From contig CAJYAJ010000013.1 in the NCBI GenBank assembly GCA_913065005.1, positions 1 to 33,613 of the forward strand: a DNA stretch of 33,613 bases. The letters are read 5' to 3'. Source of the DNA: an uncultured Verrucomicrobiota bacterium. GTDB taxonomy: Bacteria > Verrucomicrobiota > Kiritimatiellia > Kiritimatiellales > Pontiellaceae. Below the pieces are notes generated by a model, which was not told the DNA's origin, did no database searches, and saw only the letters and a list, made by a program, of their open reading frames with translations. The translations under genes were made by a program, and so were the position numbers. Position 1 is the first letter of the stretch; every line of letters begins with the position of its first letter. Below are positions 21,713-28,966 of this stretch, piece by piece.

Positions 21713-22840
21713 TTACACTCGTTCAAATTTTTTCGAGCAGGCTGCCAACATCCGACACCCCGCCGCTTCTACCGCCACAGTATCCTCAATTCGAACCCCG
21801 CCTACGCCTGGATAATAAAGCCCCGGTTCCACAGTCACGACATCCCCTTCGCTTAAAATCTCACCACTTCGACCGATGCGTGGACGCTCATGAATATCCA
21901 GCCCAACTCCATGGCCCGTGCCATGAATAAACCCAACCTGTTTTCCATTTGATTCACCTGTCACGAAACCAGCCGCCTCAAAAGTCGCTACGATATGCTG
22001 GTGAATCTCATCTCCACACACATCAGAGCGTACTTTTTTTAGAGCCTGTTTTTGAGCCTTTAAAACCGTATTGTAGATCTTTTTAAGCGCCGAGGATGCT
22101 TCACCTCTGCAAACCGTTCGCGTTAGATCTCCCCAATATCCTGTTGTTTCATTGCGCGGAAAAATATCCACTATAATCGCTTCTCCAGCAAACAAAGGCC
22201 CAGAACCCCGCTCATGCGGATCCGTCGCCTGATCTCCACCTGCCACAATAATATCACGCCCTGAGCACCCACGCTTTAATAGCTCCAATTGAACCGCCTC
22301 TCGAACTCGCTCCGACGTAAGCACACCTTGCGAATCACGCAAGGCTCCCCGCGATCCAATATCCGCAGATGCAATCCTCGCTACCGCTTCCTTCATTCCT
22401 GCAACGGCTGCGCGTTGCGAATTTCGAATATACTCAATCTCTTGCTGGTTTTTTGTTCGCCGGGTCGGATAATTAGATCGTGGGCTTAGCTGTACTTTCC
22501 ACCCTTTTTCCATTAGTTTAGTATAAATTCCCGCAGGAAAATCAAATCCCACCTCCACTGTTTTTATCCCCACACGTGCGGCTACTGCCTGAATCTGCTC
22601 CACAATATCCCAGCGTTTTTTAGGCGGTAATAGCAACTCCTCAGGCGTAAGCACCTCTACTGATGAATAGCATTCTCGCTTGGCGCGACCCTGCTCCATC
22701 GTCGAAACCACCAAAATTTGTTTCTTAGCCAATATAATCAGCAAAACTGGATCGGGTGCGACAAACCCACATCCATAACGCACATCATTTACGGCTGTTA
22801 ATGAATTCGAATAAATGAGTCGTGCTTTTAATCGCGCCAT
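21713..22840 (-). CDS. M24 metallopeptidase (Xaa-Pro aminopeptidase family)
   Basis: This 375-residue protein removes N-terminal residues before proline in known members. The N-terminal creatinase-like domain covers about 1-130. The C-terminal pita-bread domain carries the five metal ligands: Asp225 (IIVDIFPRN), Asp238 (YWGDLTRT), His310 (GTGHGVGLDIHE), Glu338 (VTVEPGLY) and Glu352 (GGVRIEDT). In many members the first block reads D-x-G/A, so IFPRN is a mild variant. It is the first gene of a minus-strand group and is divergent from dnaA across about 290 bases. Confidence 0.9.
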   Translation of the reverse strand: MARLKARLIYSNSLTAVNDVRYGCGFVAPDPVLLIILAKKQILVVSTMEQGRAKRECYSSVEVLTPEELLLPPKKRWDIVEQIQAVAARVGIKTVEVGFDFPAGIYTKLMEKGWKVQLSPRSNYPTRRTKNQQEIEYIRNSQRAAVAGMKEAVARIASADIGSRGALRDSQGVLTSERVREAVQLELLKRGCSGRDIIVAGGDQATDPHERGSGPLFAGEAIIVDIFPRNETTGYWGDLTRTVCRGEASSALKKIYNTVLKAQKQALKKVRSDVCGDEIHQHIVATFEAAGFVTGESNGKQVGFIHGTGHGVGLDIHERPRIGRSGEILSEGDVVTVEPGLYYPGVGGVRIEDTVAVEAAGCRMLAACSKKFERV

Positions 22841-23130
22841 ACGCTTATTTCTCTTTTTTTTGGTTTATGACCTCTAAACTAACACGAGTTATTCACTACA
22901 CAAATCTCCATTTGAAGACGATCTAAACCCACATTTAGTGGTTTTTAAAATTAGGATATACTAAATCAAGTATACCGTGTTTTTTAGTAAAAAAAATGAT
23001 GCTAATGCCTTTACCAAATTTCTCCGATTAACTAATCTCCTGCCTCACGTGGAAATAGCAGTTATAACCACGTGTTTAATAACCTGTTAATAACTTTTTA
23101 TACAACCGATTATGTGGATTTTATTAGGAA
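22841..23130. promoter_or_regulatory. dnaA/peptidase intergenic region with palindromes and a DnaA-like box
   Basis: This AT-rich, gene-free region contains TTATTCACT (22889-22897) and TGTTAATAA (23085-23093), each one mismatch from the DnaA box TTATNCACA or its complement. TATACT-6-AGTATA (22957-22974) is an inverted repeat. CACGTGG (23046-23052) and CCACGTG (23068-23074) face each other 57-85 bases before the dnaA ATG. These fit a regulatory leader for dnaA; a part in replication is possible. Confidence 0.5.
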
Positions 23131-24498
23131 ATGTCGTACAAAATTGAACCTATCTGGCAAGCGTGCTGTGAACAACTGAAAACCATTTTATCTGATGATA
23201 TATACGATCGCTGGATCGCTGTCATTCAGCCGCTATCCATAGAAGAAAACAATCTTCAATTAGCCGTTGCAAACGACTTTTATAAAGATTGGCTCGAAGA
23301 GAATTATCTACCCTTAATTGATAAAGCACTCATCCTGATCGGACACGAAGAATTGACCGCCACGCTAACCGTGGATGTTCAACGGTTTGATCATGCAACA
23401 TCTAACGAAAAACCCGCTGTTGAAGCACCCAAAAAAGAGCGGACCATGCGGATGAGCAATAAATCGAAAAATAAACTAAATCCAACGTATACCTTCGATT
23501 CGTTTGTTATTGGTGAAAACAACCAATTTGCACATGCAGCGGCCATGGCAGCAGCAACCTCCCCTTCTCGAACCTATAATCCCCTATTTATCTATGGTGG
23601 TGTCGGTTTAGGAAAAACGCACTTAATGCAAGCGATCGGGAATTATGTCGCTCAACAAAAAAATCGAGCCAAGGTGCGCTACATCACATGTGAATCATTT
23701 ACAAATGAATATATCGATGCTCTTCAAAACAACAATGTATCTGCATTCCGAAAAAAATATCGAAAAATTGACCTCTTACTCATTGATGATATCCAATTCT
23801 TAGATGGGAAAAATCGACTCCAAGAAGAGTTTTTCCATACGTTCAACACGCTTTTCGAAAGTCATAAGCAGATTATTTTAACCTCTGACCGAACACCGAG
23901 TGAAATGTCAGGCCTAGCCCCTCGTTTAATATCCCGCTTTGAATGGGGATTAGTCACCGAATTAATTAAACCTGATGTCGAGACTCGAATCGCCATTTTA
24001 AGAAAAAAAGCAGCCTCCATGCAGGTGCATATCGATAATACCTTAATTGATTATCTTGCACAAAAAATCTCATCGAACATCCGGAGTTTAGAGGGTGCCT
24101 TAATTCGAATCGCAACCTTTAACTCACTCACCCATCAAGAGATTACCATTGAACGGATCGATCAACTACTTCATGACTTGATCGGAAAAGATGAATGTAT
24201 GCCGATTAGTGTCGATCTAGTCCAAAAAACAGTTGCTGATTATTATGATATTCGACTCTCTGATCTCACGGGGAAAAAAAGATCAAAGGATATTGTGTGG
24301 CCTCGTCAAGTTGCCATGCATCTATCGCGTACATTAACAAAAAATTCATTCCCCTCAATCGGACAAAAATTTGATCGAAATCATGCCACCGTTCTTTATG
24401 CTCATGAACAAGTGAATAGCCGAGCAAATCAAGATCGACAACTCGAGCAGACCTTAGCACTCTTGACCGAAAAAATTAAAGATAACTCATTCTCATAA
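23131..24498 (+). CDS. dnaA: Chromosomal replication initiator protein DnaA
   Basis: This initiator binds DnaA boxes and opens oriC. It has 455 residues. Domain I is at about 1-85, a short linker at about 86-118, and the AAA+ domain at about 119-345: Walker A GGVGLGKTH (156-164), Walker B LLLIDDIQF (215-223), sensor regions LTSDRTPSEM and RLISRFEWG. The DNA-binding domain IV runs from about 355 to the end. Its signature normally reads FGGRDHTTV; here it is FDRNHATV (414-421), one residue shorter and with Asp and Thr replaced. The gene starts next to AGGAA, very close to the ATG. The coding strand still has C above G, unlike dnaN. recF does not follow dnaN here. Confidence 0.97.
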   Translation: MSYKIEPIWQACCEQLKTILSDDIYDRWIAVIQPLSIEENNLQLAVANDFYKDWLEENYLPLIDKALILIGHEELTATLTVDVQRFDHATSNEKPAVEAPKKERTMRMSNKSKNKLNPTYTFDSFVIGENNQFAHAAAMAAATSPSRTYNPLFIYGGVGLGKTHLMQAIGNYVAQQKNRAKVRYITCESFTNEYIDALQNNNVSAFRKKYRKIDLLLIDDIQFLDGKNRLQEEFFHTFNTLFESHKQIILTSDRTPSEMSGLAPRLISRFEWGLVTELIKPDVETRIAILRKKAASMQVHIDNTLIDYLAQKISSNIRSLEGALIRIATFNSLTHQEITIERIDQLLHDLIGKDECMPISVDLVQKTVADYYDIRLSDLTGKKRSKDIVWPRQVAMHLSRTLTKNSFPSIGQKFDRNHATVLYAHEQVNSRANQDRQLEQTLALLTEKIKDNSFS

Positions 24499-24782
24499 CG
24501 ACCCTCAATTTCTTAGATAATCAGCCTGCTTCGCTTCACAACCATCTCTTGAGATAACCCGCTCGATAAACTGTTAATAAAATAACAATAACTTCTATAA
24601 CTCTCACTTTTCAACAAAACCTACTTTCTATCGATACGTTATCAACAACCCCGACTCGGATTTTAAGTTTTTACGGGTGACGACTTTACAAAAAATAAGT
24701 ACCGTCTTATTCACATATTCACAGCATATAGGAATAGTGTATTTATTAAATAATCTATCTCTATTCTACAGGAGACTTGTTG
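24499..24782. other. Candidate chromosomal origin (oriC) between dnaA and dnaN
   Basis: This AT-rich gap has DnaA-box-like 9-mers: TTATTCACA (24707-24715, full match to TTATNCACA), the adjoining ATATTCACA (24715-24723), TTATCAACA (24639-24647) and TGTTAATAA (24572-24580, complement TTATTAACA), the last three with one mismatch each. An AT-rich unwinding-type stretch covers 24565-24600. By hand count the plus strand has 51 C and 16 G in 24481-24660, about equal numbers in 24661-24780, and more G than C further into dnaN. A skew switch beside DnaA boxes between dnaA and dnaN is the classic origin signature. The dnaN ribosome-binding site AGGAGA is at 24770-24775. Confidence 0.65.
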
Positions 24783-25889
24783 ATGAAACTGACCATAGAT
24801 AAAAACCAGCTTTTAGAAACCTTGCAAAAAGTACAATCGATTGTAGGTCAACGAACAACGTTACCTATTCTATCGAATGTAATGCTTGAAGCTCATCACG
24901 GACAATTAATCTGCACAACGACCGATATGGAAGTTAGCTTACGAACGAGTATCGAAGCAGATATCGAAGTGGAAGGAGCAACCACTTTGCCTGCAAGACG
25001 TTTTTTCAGTATTTGCAGAGACTTACCGAGCCATCAAGTTGAGTTATCACTTGAGTCTGGTGAGGATAAAGGCGAAATCGTAACGATTGTTTCAGGATCT
25101 TATAAAGGAAAGTTGGGTGGCTTATCTAAAAATGATTTTCCCCCTATGCCTGTATTTGAGGAGAGCTTTAGTTATACGCTTGGACAAGGGATTCTGAAGG
25201 ATACGCTTCAGAAAACATCGTACGCGGCTTCTAGCGATGAATCTCGGGCGATTTTGAATGGTTCATTGATGTCCTTCCGAGATGGAAAACTTATTACCGT
25301 GTGTACTGATGGTCGTCGCTTAGCTCTAGTAGAGCAAGATATAGAAATGCCAGAAGAAGCGCAGATGGATGTAGTGGTGCCTACAAAAACAGTGAATGAG
25401 CTTATTAAATCATTAGTTATAGAGGAGGATATTGAGATACGTATGTCTTCCACTCAGATTTCATTCGAATTTGGAAATATTCTCATTATCTCTAAGTTGA
25501 TTGATGGCACCTATCCAAATTACAGGCAAGTGATTCCCTCACAATGTGAAGAACGAATTAGTGTGGAGAGGGAATTATTACAAAGTGCGGTTCGGCGTGT
25601 TTCTCTCATGCTTGACGATCAGGCGGCAGCAGTTCGATTGGATATTAGTGAAAACCGAATTGAGCTGACTACTTCAACACCTGAAATAGGAACCGCCACA
25701 GAAAGTATACCCGTTAAATACAGTGGAAAATCAATATCAATTGCATTTAATCCAACCTACTTAGTTGCCCCATTAAAGCATCTCGAAAGCGATGAGGTCT
25801 TTATTGAACTATCCGATGAAACAAGTCCGGGAGTCATAAAGAGTAATATTCCGTTTTTATATGTGATTATGCCTATTCGCGTAAACTAA
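24783..25889 (+). CDS. dnaN: DNA polymerase III subunit beta (sliding clamp)
   Basis: This ring clamp tethers the polymerase to DNA. It has 368 residues from ATG 24783, with AGGAG eight bases upstream; a TTG two codons earlier is not needed. Three clamp domains cover about 1-120, 125-245 and 250-368. Family strings include GQRTTLPILSNVMLEA, TDMEVSLRT, PARRFFSICRDLP, YAASSDESRAILNG, CTDGRRLAL, DGTYPNYRQVIP, NPTYLVAPLKHLESDEVFIEL and the final YVIMPIRVN, which corresponds to the usual YLVMPMRL end. The stop is one base before the end of a convergent tRNA gene. Confidence 0.97.
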   Translation: MKLTIDKNQLLETLQKVQSIVGQRTTLPILSNVMLEAHHGQLICTTTDMEVSLRTSIEADIEVEGATTLPARRFFSICRDLPSHQVELSLESGEDKGEIVTIVSGSYKGKLGGLSKNDFPPMPVFEESFSYTLGQGILKDTLQKTSYAASSDESRAILNGSLMSFRDGKLITVCTDGRRLALVEQDIEMPEEAQMDVVVPTKTVNELIKSLVIEEDIEIRMSSTQISFEFGNILIISKLIDGTYPNYRQVIPSQCEERISVERELLQSAVRRVSLMLDDQAAAVRLDISENRIELTTSTPEIGTATESIPVKYSGKSISIAFNPTYLVAPLKHLESDEVFIELSDETSPGVIKSNIPFLYVIMPIRVN

Positions 25890-25890
25890 T

Positions 25891-25964
25891 TGGTTGCCGA
25901 ACTAGGGGTCGAACCTAGACTAAGCGAGTCAGAGTCGCTTGTGCTGCCATTACACCATTCGGCA
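25891..25964 (-). tRNA. tRNA-Gln (anticodon CTG)
   Basis: The 74-base gene on the minus strand includes CCA. The acceptor TGCCGAA pairs fully with TTCGGCA, the T arm is CTAGG-TTCGACC-CCTAG, and the anticodon arm AGCGA-CTCTGAC-TCGCT gives CTG. U1-A72 is the usual weak first pair of tRNA-Gln. Confidence 0.97.
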
Positions 25965-26074
25965 CTGCTTAAAAGCCAAGCAAACTATGATGAATCGATG
26001 AATCGATCAATGTGAATTTATAAAAATAATGAACAACAAGTGTTCGATTATTAAAACGTGAAAACGACGGTTTT

Positions 26075-26926
26075 TTACCCCTTCATCACATCCGTTAACG
26101 CATCTTTCAATTCAGCGTGTTTGAACGGATAGCCGGCGGTTTTTAATTTTTCAGGAATAACATGAGTGCCAGATAAAAGAATAGCTTCTGCCATTTCCCC
26201 AAATAGAATCTTAGCTGCAAACCCTGGTAGCGGTAGGATCGTAGGTCGGTTAATGACCTTGCCCAACACGTTTGTAAATTCTTTATTATCAACAGGATTG
26301 GGAGCGGTCAGATTAACGGGACCAACAAGTGAATCTTGTGCCATGATGAATTGTATCGCACCGACCATATCATCAAGGCTGATCCAACTCATATACTGTT
26401 TTCCTGAGCCTAATATACCACCACCACCCAAGAGAAAGGGAGGTAACATTTTTTTCAATGCACCACCCTTTCTGCTTAACACAATCCCAGTCCGAATATG
26501 AACGGTTCGAATTCCAGCTTGTTCGGCCGCTTCCGTTGAATTTTCCCATTCCACACAAACTTCGGGAAGAAAACCCGACCCGGATGGAGAGCTCTCTGTA
26601 ATCACGTCTGATCCTGTATCCCCATAAAAACCGGTAGCTGAGGCACTGATGAACACAGATGGCTTATGATCGCTGGAAGCAAGTTGCTCTGATAAAAGAC
26701 GCGTGCCCGTCAAGCGACTCATCTTAATCCGTTCCTTCTTCGCCGCATTCCATCGACCTTCAGCGATATTTTCTCCCGCTAAATGAATAACCGCATCTAC
26801 ACCTTCAAAATTGATCGGTTTTTTGAAGTCACGACCCAAACCAACAACGATATGACCCTCCGTAACAAGAGCCTCTTTAAGAGCAATTCCAACAAGACCA
26901 TGCGATCCAGATAAATAAATTTTCAT
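26075..26926 (-). CDS. TIGR01777 family epimerase (YfcH-like SDR)
   Basis: This extended short-chain dehydrogenase-like protein of 283 residues binds a nucleotide through the N-terminal Rossmann loop GSHGLVG (7-13), a variant of GGTGFIG. Family strings are VDAVIHLAGENIAEGRWNAAKKERI, SRLTGTRLL, FISASATGFYGDTG, RTGIVLSRKGGALKKMLPPF, YMSWISLDDMVGAI and NLTAPNPVDNKEF. The C-terminal stretch is FGEMAEAILLSGTHVIPEKLKTAGYPFKH. The reaction is not known for the family. AAGGA lies eight bases before the ATG. It is a monocistronic minus-strand gene between tRNA-Gln and the divergent mnmG. Confidence 0.92.
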   Translation of the reverse strand: MKIYLSGSHGLVGIALKEALVTEGHIVVGLGRDFKKPINFEGVDAVIHLAGENIAEGRWNAAKKERIKMSRLTGTRLLSEQLASSDHKPSVFISASATGFYGDTGSDVITESSPSGSGFLPEVCVEWENSTEAAEQAGIRTVHIRTGIVLSRKGGALKKMLPPFLLGGGGILGSGKQYMSWISLDDMVGAIQFIMAQDSLVGPVNLTAPNPVDNKEFTNVLGKVINRPTILPLPGFAAKILFGEMAEAILLSGTHVIPEKLKTAGYPFKHAELKDALTDVMKG

Positions 26927-27076
26927 GACATCCTTACATGTTAATAAAGGGTTATATCGGTATATTTACAATTTGCTTACTTCTATGTAATAAAAAAATG
27001 AGAATAGTGAGAGTTTAAAAAAGCGATTATTGACCAACGAAGCTCGGTGTGTAAGCTGATGTTATTGGAGAATGGT

Positions 27077-28966
27077 ATGGCGGATTTAAGAACACAGGTA
27101 ATTGTTGTTGGCGGAGGTCATGCCGGTTATGAAGCGGCATTAGCTTCAGCTCGGATGGGCGTTAAAACCATTCTCGTTACGCTGGACCAATCCCAAATTG
27201 GACGATTACCTTGCAATCCAGCTGTCGGTGGGATCGCAAAATCACACCTGGTCTCAGAAGTAGATGCAATGGGAGGCGAAATAGCCAAAAATGCCGATTT
27301 TACCGGTGTTCAATATCGGATGCTAAATACGCGCAAAGGACCAGCTGTACAATCTAATCGAATCCAATGCGATAAAACAGCCTATCCTGTACGCATCCAA
27401 GAAGTGCTCAAAAACCAAACCAATTTAAGTTTGATTGATGATATGGTTACCTCCATAGATACGCAAAATGGTAAAGTTAAGTCTATCTCAACTCGTTCTT
27501 ATGGAGTAATTTACGCTGATTGTGTTGTAATTTGTACGGGAACTTTTTTACGTGGAAGAGTGTTAATAGGCACGGAATCAATTGCAGAAGGCCGTATGGG
27601 TGAAGAATCTGCCGAAGCCTTATCAGCGTCTTTTCAGTCTTTTGGTTTTTCACTCGCTAGATTAAAGACCGGTACCCCGCCCCGTATACACCGCGACTCG
27701 ATCGCCTATGATCGTATTGATGAGCAACCCGGTGAAGATCCACCCCCTTTTTTCTCATATGAAGCCAAAAAAATTCGTAAAGCAGCCGAAGCGGAACTGT
27801 TCCACGTGGAACAATCCCCTTTAATTCCGTGGCTACCTGGCGATCAACAGCTGAGTTGTTACTTAACACACACCAACCCGCAGACACATCAAATCATTGC
27901 AGATCATCTTCATGAAAGCGCGATGTATGGAGGCATGATTGAGGGTACGGGCGTTCGGTATTGCCCTTCTATCGAAGATAAAATCGTAAAATTTTCAGGT
28001 CGTGATGCCCATCATGTGTTTATTGAACCTGAGGGGCGAAATAATGTGCGACTCTATCCCAATGGCACCTCAAATAGCCTTCCTGAAGCAGTACAATTAA
28101 AAATGATTCGATCGATTGTAGGTATGGAGCAAGCTGAAATGATTCGTCCCGGCTATGCGATTGAGTATGATTTTGCAGATCCAACTCAGCTTTTTCATTC
28201 ATTAGAGACAAAAAAAGTAGAGAGTCTCTTCTTTGCGGGTCAGCTCAACGGCACCACGGGCTATGAAGAAGCATCTGCTCAGGGCTTTGTGGCAGGCGTG
28301 AATGCAGCGTGTAAAGTATTAGGTGAGCCTGAATTCATATTAAGCCGAAACGAAAGTTATATAGGCGTTTTAATTGATGATTTGGTGACAAAAGGAACCG
28401 ATGAGCCATATCGAATGTTTACATCTAGATCAGAACATCGGCTAACATTACGCCAGGACAATGCGCCATACCGTTTATATGAGAAAGCGGCCCGAATTCA
28501 AATATTGAGCAACGATCGCTTACAGATAACTAAAAATCAGATGGATTCGATTCAAAAAGAGATGCGGCGGCTCGAAAAGACGTTTTCGGGCGGGAAGTCA
28601 TTAGCCCAACTTTTGCGTCAACCCGGGAATAACTACGAAGCGCTGCCAATGGAACTGCGCGAATATGATGATGAGGATATAGTGCGTCAGGTTGAGATCG
28701 AGATTAAATACGCGGGCTATATCAAACGCGAACGTGAGCGGATTGAGACTGCGCTAAAACAGGAGTCCTGGAGGATCCCAGTCAGTTTTGATTACGATAC
28801 TGTGGGCGGCTTACGGACAGAATCCCTCGAGAAGCTAAAAAAAATACTTCCCGAAAACTTAGGGCAGGCCGGACGAATATCGGGTGTAAACCCTTCGGAT
28901 GTAGCGCTTTTAAGTGTAGCTATCAAAAAACGGGAAGCTGCGAACGCGACTGATGTATCAGCGTAG
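27077..28966 (+). CDS. mnmG: tRNA uridine-5-carboxymethylaminomethyl modification enzyme MnmG
   Basis: This FAD enzyme works with MnmE to modify U34 of certain tRNAs. It has 629 residues from ATG 27077, with GGAG nine bases upstream. The FAD motif is VVGGGHAGYEAALASARMG, followed by LPCNPAVGGIAKSHLVSEVDA. The signature usually read GPxYCPSIEDK is GVRYCPSIEDK here. PGYAIEYDF, LFFAGQLNGTTGYEEASAQG and PYRMFTSRSEHRLTLRQDNA are intact, and the C-terminal helical domain follows. Between FFSY and CYLTHTN it has about 31 residues against 12 in E. coli, and the extra part (FHVEQ 242-246) is encoded by a parS palindrome. rsmG, parA and parB, common neighbours, do not follow. Its end overlaps the convergent gene by nine bases. 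Confidence 0.97.
   Translation: MADLRTQVIVVGGGHAGYEAALASARMGVKTILVTLDQSQIGRLPCNPAVGGIAKSHLVSEVDAMGGEIAKNADFTGVQYRMLNTRKGPAVQSNRIQCDKTAYPVRIQEVLKNQTNLSLIDDMVTSIDTQNGKVKSISTRSYGVIYADCVVICTGTFLRGRVLIGTESIAEGRMGEESAEALSASFQSFGFSLARLKTGTPPRIHRDSIAYDRIDEQPGEDPPPFFSYEAKKIRKAAEAELFHVEQSPLIPWLPGDQQLSCYLTHTNPQTHQIIADHLHESAMYGGMIEGTGVRYCPSIEDKIVKFSGRDAHHVFIEPEGRNNVRLYPNGTSNSLPEAVQLKMIRSIVGMEQAEMIRPGYAIEYDFADPTQLFHSLETKKVESLFFAGQLNGTTGYEEASAQGFVAGVNAACKVLGEPEFILSRNESYIGVLIDDLVTKGTDEPYRMFTSRSEHRLTLRQDNAPYRLYEKAARIQILSNDRLQITKNQMDSIQKEMRRLEKTFSGGKSLAQLLRQPGNNYEALPMELREYDDEDIVRQVEIEIKYAGYIKRERERIETALKQESWRIPVSFDYDTVGGLRTESLEKLKKILPENLGQAGRISGVNPSDVALLSVAIKKREAANATDVSA
27798..27813. promoter_or_regulatory. 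parS centromere-like site (ParB binding)
   Basis: TGTTCCACGTGGAACA is a perfect 16-bp palindrome. It is the parS sequence described for Pseudomonas and differs from the B. subtilis consensus TGTTNCACGTGAAACA at one position. It lies inside mnmG, about 3.1 kb from the candidate origin, which is where chromosomal parS sites usually cluster. Confidence 0.88.

Follow-up and report, generated by a model that had tools for sequence, protein, structure and literature searches.

The 284-bp gap between dnaA and dnaN in the window (the whole analysed stretch of 33,613 bases, which is the complete contig C13) is very probably the oriC of its chromosome, with a layout that is probably like that of the basal unwinding system of B. 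subtilis. The preliminary description had proposed a candidate oriC at this gap, and our analysis bears it out: the GC skew, a change-point fit, a unique profile match, the positions of the DnaA boxes, the weakest duplex and the skew minimum of a related single-contig genome (G024) all agree. A skew switch, a cluster of DnaA boxes and adjacent, easily melted AT-rich DNA, as expected of a DnaA-dependent oriC, were all found here. The interval originally proposed (24481-25140) includes the gap but reaches too far into dnaN, and the functional core is likely about 24,570-24,782. As such, this is an ordinary and well supported oriC of the kind typical of bacteria. Mildly new are a Pontiellaceae-specific sequence block and, in a small-genome clade, loosened DnaA-trios with a doubled box. 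A literature search found no description of an origin for Pontiella or other Kiritimatiellia.

Source genome and gene context

The metagenome-assembled genome (MAG) comprises 1,199,496 bases in 44 contigs and is 79% complete. The source organism is a small-genome Pontiella-like bacterium belonging to the genus of Pontiella (Verrucomicrobiota/Kiritimatiellia), and its DnaA is 65-67% identical to those of Pontiella sulfatireligans and a Pontiella MAG, the nearest named relatives, and 80% identical to that of a sister MAG (G019). It was noted that G019, G015 and G022 are similarly small genomes, which suggests a reduced-genome clade within a genus whose genomes mostly measure 2-9 Mb. The genes flanking the gap, and the gap itself, are as follows.

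23131-24498, plus strand: dnaA, the initiator gene (Pfam Bac_DnaA 2.3e-71, Bac_DnaA_C 2.1e-25, DnaA_N 6.6e-17; alignment)
24499-24782, plus strand: dnaA-dnaN intergenic region, the proposed oriC (change-point at 24,657, unique profile match, synteny)
24783-25889, plus strand: dnaN, the sliding clamp gene (Pfam DNA_pol3_beta domains 1-3; tblastn of relatives)

DnaA domains I, III and IV are present, the N-terminal, AAA+ and helix-turn-helix domains are all intact, and alignment showed that the ISM region and the RNHATVLYAH signature are intact as well. The conserved start of dnaN is the ATG at 24783, preceded by AGGAG; the TTG at 24777 given by the mechanical ORF call is not conserved. In every relative inspected (L002-L033, including two duplicates of the same organisms), dnaA and dnaN were adjacent, with gaps of 230-799 bp. 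The gene order pepP-dnaA-dnaN-epimerase-mnmG is shared by G024, G027, G018 and G019, and the distance from dnaN to the epimerase gene is approximately 1.8 kb in the three larger genomes (G024, G027 and G018) compared to approximately 0.2 kb in the window and G019.

Loss of dnaA itself from some of the small-genome relatives was considered and rejected. Assembly or binning loss is the best explanation, because the G022 contig ends 36 bp from dnaN, the fragmented assembly of G002 carries dnaN and the inter-box block described below without a dnaA match, and G015, G004 and G010 lack dnaN in addition to dnaA and gave no genuine pepP match. It seems that origin regions are easily lost in assembly or binning.

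DnaA boxes and conserved layout of the gap

The 9-mers listed in the preliminary description were all located at their given positions, with the copy of TTATTAACA at 24572 lying on the minus strand. The following features were identified within the gap and upstream of dnaA.

23085-23093, minus strand: DnaA-box-like TTATTAACA, 46 bp before dnaA, at a position matching boxes at -46/-47 in several relatives
24572-24580, minus strand: DnaA-box-like TTATTAACA, weak, with 2 mismatches to TTATCCACA
24639-24647, plus strand: DnaA box TTATCAACA, 144 bp before the dnaN ATG, its position conserved across Pontiellaceae
24668-24705, plus strand: conserved inter-box block, with TTTTACGGGTGACGACTTTAC at 24669-24689 followed by AAAAAATAAGTACCG (pattern search and alignment)
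24707-24715, plus strand: DnaA box TTATTCACA, an extra upstream copy, with CTATTCACA in the same place in G019
24715-24723, plus strand: DnaA-box-like ATATTCACA, 68 bp before dnaN, the positional equivalent of the second box of the relatives
24726-24766, plus strand: candidate AT-rich DNA unwinding element, the weakest 40-bp duplex of the window
24728-24739, plus strand: degenerate DnaA-trio stretch ATA GGA ATA GTG (CTA ATA ATA GTG in relatives)

Four sites with at most one mismatch to TTATNCACA were found in the gap, compared to approximately 0.2 expected from the rate in shuffles of the whole window (22 per 33.6 kb). At most one mismatch to TTATCCACA was allowed by only two of the gap boxes (24639 and 24707). 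In a weighted box-density scan of 47,440 windows across the genome the gap ranked among the top 5, but two other loci tie with it, and the boxes alone are therefore not decisive.

An nhmmer profile was built from the gaps of 20 Pontiellaceae relatives, leaving out the window and the sister G019, and its sole significant match in the 1.2-Mb genome was C13:24638-24781 (E=1.4e-17; next match, E=1.5). When the Pontiellaceae gaps are aligned at dnaN, the first box lies at 143-144 bp, most often as TTATCAACA, and the second box at 67-68 bp before dnaN, the two being 76 bp apart with the block TTTTACNGGTGACGG..TTAC...AAATA.GTA between them. After the second box come a brief GA(C) spacer and a run of trios such as CTACTACTACTAG or CTAATAATAGTG, and then the AT-rich sequence TTTATAAATA and the dnaN ribosome-binding site. 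In the window the second box is doubled as TTATTCACATATTCACA, with copies at 24707 and 24715 that are offset by 8 and share one base, and G019 has CTATTCACATATTCACA at the doubled-box position.

We found TTTTACNGGTGACNGNNTTAC with at most two mismatches in 25 of the 28 genus genomes. All zero-mismatch copies of the block in these genomes occupy the dnaA-dnaN position, and copies elsewhere carry 1-2 mismatches and are about as common as control matches. Since the exact copies are confined to the dnaA-dnaN gap, the block is origin-specific. It may be a regulator binding site or a structural element. We tentatively put forward, as a possible reading, that the block of approximately 38 bp is a Pontiellaceae-specific origin element bound by a putative regulator of initiation or segregation, and that in the small-genome clade the trios have loosened and the adjacent box has been doubled. 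A promoter scan of the gap gave matches at chance level, and an Rfam scan returned tRNAs only.

Trio sequences, duplex stability and proposed initiation

The published trio rule (PMC8287927) requires a box and, within 16 bp after it, three or more trios of the form 5'-NTN-3' on the box strand. Trio runs past the second box were found in most Pontiellaceae relatives, with empirical p values mostly at or below 0.02; a few Pontiellaceae relatives and several members of the neighbouring family did not pass. For the window the best match was poor (GTA TTT ATT, spacer 15, p=0.135), and among its four homologous trios one is broken. A change in the DnaA ISM matching these weak trios was considered and rejected: the position in apparent correspondence with Asn187 (B. 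subtilis numbering) is Asp or Glu in the whole family and is therefore not specific to the window. The duplex at 24,726, directly beside the doubled box, has a nearest-neighbour energy of -40.2 kcal/mol, at the 99.94th percentile of the genome.

From this arrangement, DnaA would bind the boxes on the plus strand at 24639 and 24707/24715, and from the second site an oligomer would spread rightward along the lower strand of the AT-rich DNA with trio-like sequence at 24728-24766. This stretch would then melt and allow the helicases to load there, with two forks presumably departing in opposite directions.

A second possibility is that the origin is bipartite, with the gap serving as the unwinding half and a 290-bp region upstream of dnaA binding DnaA and being needed as well, as in B. 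subtilis and C. difficile. The DnaA-box-like site at 23085 (-46 before dnaA) matches the -46/-47 boxes of several relatives, and the gap upstream of dnaA (22841-23130) is AT-rich and contains a weak duplex at 22,934. However, the 400 bp that precede dnaA in the window hold no site matching TTATCCACA with at most one mismatch, and autoregulation of dnaA, which is probably the role of the site at 23085 judging by its place, better explains a single conserved box. We therefore consider a bipartite origin unlikely.

GC skew across the window, the assembly and relatives

The seven C/G counts of the preliminary description (51/16, 10/8, 8/9, 6/13, 8/19, 21/12 and 8/31) were reproduced exactly. We scanned 1,198,409 of the 1,199,496 bases of the assembly and found that, among all 44 contigs, only C13 has a sustained minus-to-plus switch in GC skew, with an interior minimum 287 counts deep. 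Apart from the 5-kb C43, the remaining contigs are one-signed, except for brief stretches of the other sign in C2, C10 and C11. C43 has an interior maximum, with a plus-to-minus change at about 2257, and is a possible terminus fragment. The search for a dif site gave none that was convincing; dif-like patterns were many and weak, and none was recognised on C43. It was also noted that the skew of the 1.2-Mb genome is very strong (mean absolute 0.26 per 5 kb, compared to approximately 0.10-0.15 in the 4.1-Mb G024), and that the window is GC-poor around the origin (0.38-0.45 at 22500-28000 versus approximately 0.50 elsewhere).

A two-rate change-point fit placed the switch at 24,657, inside the 284-bp gap, with a 2-log-unit interval of 24,628-24,953. 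The raw cumulative minimum lies at 26,937 (-3069), 2.2 kb to the right of the gap and 14 counts deeper than the value near 24,900 (about -3055). The cumulative-skew minimum anticipated at about 24.7 kb was thus matched by the change-point but not by the raw minimum, which is shifted because the skew just to the right of the switch is weak and wobbles with gene strand. For the same stretch, the earlier claim that skew follows position rather than gene strand needs qualification. It holds on the left arm, where third-codon-position skew is negative on both gene strands and close to zero in two small ORFs of the plus strand, but it is weaker over the 3-5 kb immediately right of the switch, where the values run from +0.18 in dnaN to -0.20 in the epimerase gene and +0.05 in mnmG before minus-strand genes reach +0.20 to +0.36.

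Among the relatives, G024 (a single 4.1-Mb contig) has its skew minimum at 3,339,299, within its dnaA-dnaN gap, with sampled stretches negative before dnaA and positive after it, and its skew turns from plus to minus near 1.2 Mb, roughly opposite the minimum. The minimum of G027 likewise falls in the dnaA-dnaN gap and that of G018 in dnaN, and G019 has its change-point just before dnaA and its raw minimum at 26,109, between the epimerase gene and mnmG.

An origin in the epimerase-mnmG gap (26,927-27,046), at the lowest raw cumulative skew, would fit the location of mnmG beside oriC in E. coli and others, the raw minimum at 26,937 with its 70% AT and weak duplex, and the corresponding raw minimum of G019. 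However, this gap has a single weak box (26939) and no trios, it is excluded by the change-point likelihood, and its dip derives mostly from the minus-strand epimerase gene; G024 and G027, whose genes here are in the same order, have their minima in the dnaA-dnaN gap. An origin at 26.9 kb was accordingly rejected on change-point, boxes and relatives as highly improbable. That the switch is instead the edge of an assembly join or inversion, and the conserved sequence a dnaN promoter or leader with regulatory DnaA boxes only, is barely plausible: the MAG is split in 44 contigs and the strongest conservation takes in the dnaN ribosome-binding site, but gene order and switch are repeated in the sister MAG G019 and the single-contig G024, and conservation extends over 150 bp covering boxes, block and trios.

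Significance and comparison with known origins

Placing the oriC in the dnaA-dnaN gap provides a precise origin for the Pontiella lineage, which is useful for estimating growth rates from metagenome coverage. On comparative evidence, the basal unwinding system is also extended to Pontiellaceae, and one conserved origin-specific element stands out.

Experiments support the box-spacer-trio layout in B. subtilis and in oriC2 of C. difficile (PMC8287927, PMC7561715). As in the B. subtilis oriC (boxes #6/#7 and DnaA-trios; PMC8287927, PMC10721633), the boxes here face a trio-like stretch that lies to the same side and is followed by AT-rich DNA, and trio runs occur in Pontiellaceae relatives, for example CTACTACTACTAG after TTATCCACAGA. 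Unlike B. subtilis, the window has degenerate trios and tandem boxes that overlap by one base (8-bp offset), and its relatives have one box at the trios and another 76 bp upstream, with the conserved block between. C. difficile oriC2 (PMC7561715) similarly lies in the dnaA-dnaN gap, with a box, a CTA-type trio and an AT-rich DNA unwinding element in the same orientation, which is reported as 5'-CACCTACTACTATTACTACTATGA-3' (PMC7561715). However, C. difficile requires the box-rich oriC1 upstream, whereas no comparable cluster precedes dnaA in the window.
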